64,000 bases of DNA from Rapana venosa (taxonomy: Eukaryota > Mollusca > Gastropoda > Neogastropoda > Muricidae). How positions within the stretch are numbered: the first letter of the stretch is position 1; every line of letters begins with the position of its first letter. Under the pieces are notes generated by a model, which ran no database searches, was not told the origin of the DNA, and worked only from the letters and a program-made list of their open reading frames with translations. Positions 3,501 to 7,773 of this stretch are shown piece after piece. Made by a program: the position numbers and the translations under genes. The stretch lies in NCBI GenBank assembly GCA_028751875.1, contig CM054134.1:76422567-76486566 (forward strand). The letters run 5' to 3'.

Positions 3501-6500
3501 ATTATAATTGTACAGACACCCACAGGGCAAAACTGAATTCTTAGCAAATAAAAATATTTTGCCCTTATTTTTTACCCCAGAACCAAGACTCCAGGACCAG
3601 GTGCGCAGTCTGCTCTCAGAGCTCTGGCTCGTTCGGGCATGAAGATCGGTCGCATTGGTAAGTGTGTAGCTCTTTTGTTGTGGTTTTGTGTGTGTGTGTG
3701 GTTTCAGTTAACAGACTGGGGGGGGGGGGGGTTTCCGGTCACCTCGTTTTTAGTGGTGTAACACTGTTGATCTCCCCCTGCCCACCCTTCAAATGTTTCT
3801 AGTTTGGTCAGGCTGATTTGGTAGGGTTTTTCTTCCTAATGCCCTGTGGCAAATGTGCCTGAAGAAATTTTTCATCACCAGCAGGTACAATGGTCATTAA
3901 CCCTAGTTGCACGGTTCCCGGAATATTCCGGTAAAGGCGGGTCTAAGCTGTGTGGCGGATTCCGGGATGACGTGGGTGATCATAATTGAAAGCTTACTTT
4001 CGCTTTTAAAGGTCAGCCAATGAATGTTACGGTCGTTGTAGGCCCGCAGAAAGGGGTGATGGTCGTTTGACACGCACAAGCAACGAAGAATCTGATTGGT
4101 TAAGAGTGTATTTTAAAATTTTTTTCGGACCAGCCGAGATCGTCAACAAAAATGGCGGCCAGAGTTTGCACCAGAATTTCTTCGAGCGTTTTTCGAGCTT
4201 GTTTACAATATTGACAGCGAGGAGGAGTTTTAGAGGCTGGATTTGGTTGAAATAAACAATGAGGTAACAATTGTGGAATATTTTTGAAAAACTTGGTAAA
4301 AATCGATCGCGATCAGACTGAATCGAGCGGTGCTAGTTTTGCTGGATGGACTTCTTCGCTACTCGGCGATTTCGATGTCACAGATTGTTTTACTTTATTT
4401 TGACGCAATGAGGCTTCGAAATAACTGTTGTTGAGTCAAATTGCTATGCTGCTGAATACTTTGCATCACATGAAATCAAGCGATCTTTGTATTTTCGTCA
4501 TAGAAAACCACCACTTCGCACATTCCACCATGACAGTGCGAAGACGTTGATCCTTTCGCTGAACTTTTCTGAGTATTTGGTGACCGATAAAGCGATACAA
4601 ACTCATTATTTTTTTCAAAACTAATGTCAAGAAATAGTGTTTACCTAATCATGACATTTATGCACCACAAGAACTTGCTTATCGTGTTAAAATCGATCCG
4701 GGGCCCTGACGGTGGAACAGTGATCGGTAGTGCGCACACGATTTTTTTTTGTGGATTTTTTTTACATAATCATAAACACTACAGACTATTATAAAATACA
4801 CTCATTTAAAAGTATATTATCTGTTCTTTCCAGTGATTTATAGCTTTACACATTTAATTCAGTTTTATATATCAATATCAAGGGTGGTTTGAGCCCACCC
4901 TGCTCCAAAACAATGCTAGCCAATGTTAATTCAGCCAATTGAGAGTGAGGCTTGTTGCTGTCTATTCAGCGCTACTAGGGTTAATTAATAAATCTAAAAC
5001 TTGGATCTTGTGAAACCATTGTATTAACCACTGGATGCGTGTCGCCAAACTGATTATTTCCCTTGCATCTGTAGGTGCACTATGTTGTTGTACATAGGGT
5101 GTTCAAATTCCAGAGCTCGTCAGCATAGTCTTTGTTACTAATAATGGCAACACTGGTTTGTGTTGCAAATACTGCATTCTTGTGTACTGCTGGCCTTACT
5201 ACTATGGGTCATTCCAGAGAAGGGCTGAATGCAACAGAAATGAGCCACATGCTGAAACAGGGCTCCTCTTTGTTGGGGGAGTCTACTCAGCTGTGGTCAC
5301 AACAGAAATTTTATTCTTATTGACCATTTTGCAGTTCCAGATTAAAGATGCGCATCCTGAGGGTGGGGGGTCATGTCTCACACACAAACCCCCACCCCCA
5401 GCTCATTCTGGGTTTTTGTTGGGGGGGGTGGGGTGGGGTGTCAGAATGCAGCTACATTCTTATCAGAAGTTTTTCAGATGAGACTATAAACTAAGTCTCA
5501 TTTGCAAACGCATGCAGGACATGTCACGCGCATGTTAAAACCTGTCCTGCTTTTCATTGTGTGCCAGTGGTAACAACTGACAAAACTGCATACATGCAAT
5601 AACTGGATGTCAAAAAGCACAAGGGTGCTTGTTCCATTGTCCTCAAAATAATAGAATAATATCCAAATGGAAAAACAGTCGCACATGCAAAATTGACACC
5701 ATTGCTGAACCTCGGGGGGGGGGGGGGGGGGGGGCAAACCAATAGATTGATTGTGGGTTTGGACTGTTTGGGAGAAATGAAGATTGCAGCATTCTTGTGT
5801 ACTGCTGGCCTTACTACTATGGGTCATTCCAGAGAAGGGCTGAATGCAACAGAAATGAGCCACATGCTGAAACAGGGCTCCTCTTTGTTGGGGTAGTCTA
5901 CTCAGCTGTGGTCACAACAGAAATTTTATTCTTATTGACCATTTTGCCGTTCCAGATCAAAGATGCGCATCCTGAGGGTGGGGGGGTCATGTCTCTCACA
6001 CCTTCCCCCCCCAGCTCATTCTGGGTTTTTTTGTGAGACTATAAACTAAGGTCTCATTTGCAAACGCATGCAGGACATGTCATGCGCATGTTAAAACCTG
6101 TCCTGCTTTTCATTGTGTGCCAGTGGTAACAACTGACAAAATTTACAAAACTGCATACATGCAAGGACTGGATGTCAAAAAGCACAAGGTGTGCTTGTTA
6201 CATTGTCCTCAATATCCAAATGGACAAACAGTCGCACATGCAAAATTACACCATTGCTGAACCTCTGAGTTCGGGGGGAGGGGGGGGGGGGGTGTCAAAC
6301 CAATAGATTGATTGTTAGCTTGGACTGTTTGGGAGAAATGAAGATTGCAGCATTCTTGTGTACTGCTGGCCTTACTACTATGGGTCATTCCAGAGAAGGG
6401 CTGAATGCAACAGAAATATGTGACATGCTGAAACAGGGCTCTTTCGTTGGGGGAGTCTCCTCAGCTGTGGTCACAACAGAAATTTTATTCTTATTGACCA

Positions 6501-7773: not shown

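Follow-up and report, generated by a model that had tools for sequence, protein, structure and literature searches.

What is the segment of about 130 nt that occurs four times in the last intron of the ribosomal protein gene RPS14 of Rapana venosa, and what might an RNA made from it do? An earlier note on this DNA had seen the segment recur at positions 5174, 5789, 6350, and 7309 of the window (the whole stretch of 64,000 nucleotides analyzed here) and had interpreted it as an array of box H/ACA snoRNAs. BLAST places all four matched segments at these positions, on the + strand. Copy 1 spans 5172-5306 (estimated ends), copy 2 5787-5921, copy 3, which is 2 nt shorter, 6348-6480, and copy 4, which is diverged and has unrelated flanks, 7307-7442. 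The copies (n=4, all on the + strand) are approximately 133 nt long, and their identity to copy 1 is 99.2% for copy 2 (1 of 133 nt different), 93.2% for copy 3, and 82.6% for copy 4 (BLAST). Even the match between copies 4 and 1 is beyond chance (E 2e-34, BLAST within the window).

The identity of the host gene was analyzed through its product. The exons of RPS14, read by translation and joined by eye, give a conceptual product of 150 aa that matches the 40S protein S14/uS11 of PDB over its full length (E 1.3e-86) and Pfam PF00411. The last intron extends from 3658 to 7705 on the + strand, with GT-AG ends and boundaries set by eye; copy 1 starts approximately 1.5 kb from its 5' splice site, and copy 4 ends 263 nt ahead of its 3' splice site. 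The gene matches and these boundaries bear out the sense-strand, intronic placement in RPS14 that had been claimed.

A recurrent segment of this kind could be a dispersed, SINE-like mobile repeat that folds by chance into two hairpins, and the flank between the copies is itself a dispersed repeat within the window. The earlier note had named genome-wide dispersal without structural conservation as one of two findings that would count against a snoRNA. Positions 5170-5310 were used as query against the species' own genome, an assembly of 2.28 Gb in 2004 contigs, and gave 4 matches among 4 candidates, counts that are lower bounds, all of them inside the last intron of RPS14. A covariance model built from the four copies likewise recovered the same four only within the window. 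Finding the RNA segment at these four places of the genome, together with the lack of the repeat flank at copy 4, makes a mobile repeat extremely improbable.

The history of the array can be read in part from its flanks. Copies 1-3 had been described as tandem duplicates, which was confirmed with one refinement: copy 1 lacks the upstream flank that is common to copies 2 and 3. Over the aligned bases, the downstream flanks of copies 1 and 2 agree at 96% (390 matches and 17 mismatches, with 96 gap columns). The flank found ahead of copies 2 and 3 recurs as an orphan at 6584-6625 on the + strand (83% to the reference), where no snoRNA follows it; this orphan probably marks where the tandem duplication ends on the right. 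Because copy 1 lacks the upstream flank and this orphan is present, the duplicated block seems to begin close to the RNA's 5' end, and copies 1-3 would have arisen by tandem duplication of a block starting there, with a period of approximately 560-615 bp. The description of the flanks of copy 4 as unrelated also held, because beyond approximately 4 nt upstream and the ACA end there is no meaningful alignment with the flanks of copy 1. Copy 4 may be an older duplicate with flanks changed past recognition, in which the RNA itself was presumably retained by selection. An origin of copy 4 by retroposition was considered and rejected: inspection of its flanks by eye showed neither an A-tail nor a clear target-site duplication. 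Two G runs lie inside the duplicated unit, upstream of copies 2 and 3 (5714-5734, 21 G; 6273-6292, 6 + 13 G with one A between). Much of the inter-copy flank (5445-5662 and 6034-6215) is made up of a dispersed repeat with pieces 69-79% alike, which within the window occurs also at 8540-8690, 13350-13434, 53041-53282, and 63492-63690.

The anatomy described for a box H/ACA RNA was found in every copy. The basal stem GCAUUC/GAAUGC is present in 4/4 copies, as are an ANANNA hinge and a second hairpin. The hinge, or H box, is ACAGAA in copies 1-3 (5234-5239, 5849-5854, and 6410-6415) and ACATAA in copy 4 (7369-7374), and the ACA box is invariant in 4/4 copies (5302-5304, 5917-5919, 6476-6478, and 7437-7439), all on the + strand. 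The predicted RNA of approximately 133 nt has its 5' end near CUGCAUUC and its 3' end at ACANNN; this 3' end was placed via the ACA box, so that the location of ACA three nt before the end defines the end and is no test of it. In the first hairpin, the 5' guide arm UUGUGUA lies at 5180-5186, 5795-5801, 6356-6362, and 7315-7321 of copies 1-4, and the 3' guide arm AAGGGCU at 5220-5226, 5835-5841, 6396-6402, and 7355-7361 (+ strand), with the first base of the latter 14 nt upstream of the H box. The match between copies 1 and 4 runs from approximately 4 nt before GCATTC to just past ACA, which agrees with the claim that the conserved unit is the RNA. Some frames are open through parts of the copies, as they could be if the segment were a conserved protein-coding or splicing element that provides alternative RPS14 exons. 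We give this explanation almost no credence: aligned with copies 1-2, copy 3 shows a gap of 2 nt, the stretch common to copies 1 and 4 stops right after the ACA box, and RPS14 needs no part of the copies to be complete.

Predicted folding lends modest support to an H/ACA structure. Minimum-energy folds contain the basal stem and the second hairpin in 4/4 copies, and the stabilities of copies 1-4 relative to shuffled sequences correspond to z values of -2.03, -1.37, -1.11, and -1.56, with 5, 17, 30, and 14 of 200 shuffles each being at least as stable. Among the centroid folds, that of copy 3 alone contains the basal stem, and copies 2 and 3 favor a structure without it when the first 61 nt are folded alone. 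Holding the pocket, the hinge, and the tail unpaired carries a penalty of 0.8-3.4 kcal/mol. We drew the upper stem of the first hairpin as CU-CUGG/CCAG-AG, and the energy model favors CUG/CAG plus UGGCCU/GGGUCA over this stem by 1.2-1.5 kcal/mol. The favored stem leaves the guide arms unchanged and open and adds two unpaired bases on the right strand; the top of the pocket is 14 nt above the hinge with the drawn stem or, by our own count, 16 nt with that of the energy model. Because the energy model does not favor the upper stem as drawn, our confidence in the snoRNA and in the target reading is slightly lowered.

We then compared where the copies differ. Across the 39 columns that make up the drawn stems and guide arms in the first hairpin, 0 differences occur in 6/6 pairwise comparisons. 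Between copies 1 and 4, 2/20 columns differ in the apical loop, which is the sole location of copy-4 changes in the first hairpin, 2/8 in the hinge region, 19/61 in the second hairpin, and 0/3 in ACA; one base immediately outside the basal stem varies among copies. For copies 1 and 4, the contrast between columns 1-68 (4/68 different) and 70-130 (19/61) gives a Fisher p of 1.9e-4, for which sites were taken as independent and the 4/68 was counted by hand from the table. The copies may constitute a natural experiment in which the first hairpin is frozen and the second hairpin is free to drift. The covariation signal is weak. When the four rows are aligned, the drawn structure pairs 92% of 138 cells, compared with 90.4% in shuffles and 37-47% in slid versions, and the 92% level is reached by 21/500 shuffles. 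At two pairs both partners have changed, a number equalled by 21/500 shuffles and 2/6 slid versions. The stems of the first hairpin are uninformative on covariation because they never vary.

How telling this conservation is depends on the pair of copies. That between copies 1 and 2 proves little because their downstream flanks are so alike, and the single difference in 133 nt is what would be seen if the array contained a genuine H/ACA snoRNA of which one or two copies are expressed while the rest are decaying duplicates, made to seem intact by recent duplication (copies 1-3) or by gene conversion. The changed lower stem in the second hairpin of copy 3 points the same way, although copy 3 is predicted to retain this hairpin through the alternative pairing UGUGAC/GUCACA. 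Copy 4, in addition, keeps its guide arms, ANANNA hinge, and ACA despite flanks that do not align. Decay of some copies, which is compatible with the reading of the array as a guide RNA, is thus a possibility that we take seriously without considering it probable.

To return to the guide RNA itself, its predicted target was sought in rRNA. UUGUGUA and AAGGGCU form 6+6 Watson-Crick pairs on the two sides of the bracketed U of GCCCUU[U]GUACACA in the 18S of other eukaryotes, and this pocket pairing flanks an unpaired U-N, drawn 14 nt above the H box. The 18S motif was recognized first and then put to a pairing test. As rRNA sources we used ten eukaryotic contigs, probable contaminants, from bacterial genome records; they were chosen for holding CCCTTTGTACACACCGCCCGTCGC, a pattern that covers most of the target site, so that the presence of the site is selected and only its rank is informative. 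GCCCUU[UG]UACACA was the top site in 10/10 eukaryotic SSU sequences or pieces, with a score of 24, whereas the best score of the first-hairpin arms in LSU pieces (n=9) was 16. The presence of eukaryotic rRNA-gene contigs in the ten bacterial records is itself a probable contamination. Jointly shuffled arms reached the target score in 10/5000 trials (SSU+LSU of one organism, 1427 U). When the pocket borders were allowed to slip, 7/400 shuffled hairpins reached the score with GU allowed, and 5/3000 with Watson-Crick pairs only. When any two 7-mers of copy 1 were taken as arms (approximately 6,400 pairs), four others reached 12-13 Watson-Crick pairs; because these four are not at pocket-arm positions, UUGUGUA/AAGGGCU stands out by its position in the pocket. 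An alternative register, centered on the preceding U, yields 12 pairs as well (5+7), and the predicted register is uncertain by one nt among the U's of 18S GCCCUUUGUACACA. A DNA query and an exact pattern for the species' own 18S were both empty on its own genome, the sequence being either absent there or too common for the search. The first hairpin is likely to guide this conserved 18S site, as predicted by pairing alone. The box H/ACA interpretation of the earlier note is supported by the sequence features in 4/4 copies, to which the 12-bp bipartite 18S match adds a probable function, and it is very likely that the RPS14 intron RNA is a real box H/ACA snoRNA.

We take the target U of GCCCUU[U]GUACACA to be human Psi1692 and, going by primer numbering, bacterial U1391 to be the U ahead of GUACACACC. 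According to PMC10164566, Psi1692 of the human 40S is located in helix 28 and paired with G1206, and its bacterial counterpart U1391 is unmodified. PMC12239590 describes Drosophila H1 (snoRNA:Psi18S-1820), a snoRNA of a Nop60B intron complementary to an 18S region in which three U's in a row are pseudouridylated, states that Nop60B modifies these three U's, and terms U70 the human equivalent of H1. Like H1, the RPS14-intron RNA has box H/ACA form and is a predicted 18S guide; unlike H1, its host is RPS14 and not Nop60B. U70 is presumably SNORA70, the guide of 18S Psi1692, and the host of human SNORA70 is RPL10. Judging from the number in its name and from the U70 site, the three-U stretch of H1 and U70 would be the 18S GCCCUUUGUAC stretch. 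The target site would then be that of Psi1692/Psi1820, and its U would be pseudouridylated. The RPS14-intron copies differ from human U70/SNORA70 in their host (RPS14 versus RPL10) and in having no match to Rfam SNORA70 at E<=10, either in the intron region or with copies 1 and 4 alone. The SNORA70 reverse primer given in PMC7760958 implies GUGUACGC in SNORA70, which by our own reading can pair with 18S GUACAC. In PMC7760958, U1692 is assigned to SNORA64 and U4975 to SNORA70, which is the opposite of the SNORA70-Psi1692 assignment given above. By its predicted pairing, the RNA is probably equivalent in function to H1/U70 while residing in a different host gene, an equivalence that we do not extend to common descent. 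It would supply a predicted guide for a conserved small-subunit pseudouridine where no Rfam model reaches threshold. If this is true, RPS14 is an extra host for the guide function beside RPL10 in human. In the fly, that host is Nop60B (PMC12239590).

The second hairpin was scanned against seven almost full-length SSU/LSU sequences from other eukaryotes. Its elements CAUGCUGA and CAGC are invariant across the four copies and, by their spacing to ACA, could be guide arms, so that this hairpin might guide another site, or the RNA might target an snRNA or mRNA. The best scores for copies 1-4 were 24, 24, 24, and 26 (the 26 of copy 4 at one LSU), and the scan scores of 20 to 26 rise to the level of the first hairpin (24), although they were obtained with wide arm-placement freedom and no shuffled control. 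Among the best 8 sites per copy in these seven foreign rRNAs, no site was common to the four copies, a weak negative. A different or additional target is in our view unlikely, and we tentatively regard the second hairpin as a scaffold. Also unlikely is an arrangement in which four intact guides are cut apart within the intron, their first hairpins serving 18S and their second hairpins diverging to new targets; in that case, the lower stem of copy 3 would have been re-paired and the upper stem of copy 4 rewritten in the second hairpins. Because the inner copies are unreachable by trimming from the intron ends alone, this arrangement requires cuts between copies.

The covariance search proposed by the earlier note gave a divided outcome: the four-copy model finds its four, and no Rfam family reaches gathering within the window, where the intron region and copies 1 and 4 produce sub-threshold matches only. 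Copy 1 has 3 Rfam matches at E<=10, and the two top-scoring ones are full-length H/ACA families far under gathering, SNORA14 (RF00397; full-length layout, 17.6 bits, E 0.24, gathering 36) and SNORA77 (RF00599; full-length layout, 16.6 bits, E 0.17, gathering 42). These matches are generic H/ACA resemblance only. An H/ACA snoRNA of sponge RPL13A is described in PMC3412847 as duplicated within its gene, with elements and target kept while the overall sequence diverges. The RPS14 array resembles this case in being an H/ACA RNA with intragenic copies in a ribosomal protein gene, and differs from it in having another host and four copies in one intron, whereas the sponge copies are in neighboring introns. 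Intragenic duplication is also a described route to snoRNA paralogs in chicken (PMC2653536). The passages of the gastropod snoRNA literature examined contain no description of this RNA. The RNA would be another member of the known H/ACA guide class, with a predicted target newly proposed here.

Altogether, we hold with good confidence that the last intron of RPS14 carries a four-copy H/ACA snoRNA of which the first hairpin guides an 18S U and the second acts as a scaffold. In this model, derived from sequence, splicing of the last RPS14 intron, followed by trimming, would release the snoRNA, and the copies would be expressed such that four RNAs come from one intron. In a dyskerin (Nop60B/DKC1) particle, the pocket of the first hairpin would present 5'-UUGUGUA as its left arm and AAGGGCU-3' as its right arm. 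These arms would pair with 18S 5'-GCCCUU-U-G-UACACA-3', and the unpaired U (the position of human U1692 and bacterial U1391, helix 28) would become pseudouridine. The second hairpin, with no recognizable rRNA target, would drift while its fold and the ACA box persist.

Elsewhere in the window, a minisatellite with approximately 15 copies of a 42-bp unit, alternatively read as an 85-bp unit, lies at 43536-44190. On the - strand, ORFs at 54885-57444 resemble, by eye, broken pieces of a LINE-type retrotransposon, and a serine-rich open frame of 488 aa at 58325-59791 has the look of a large coding exon belonging to another gene.
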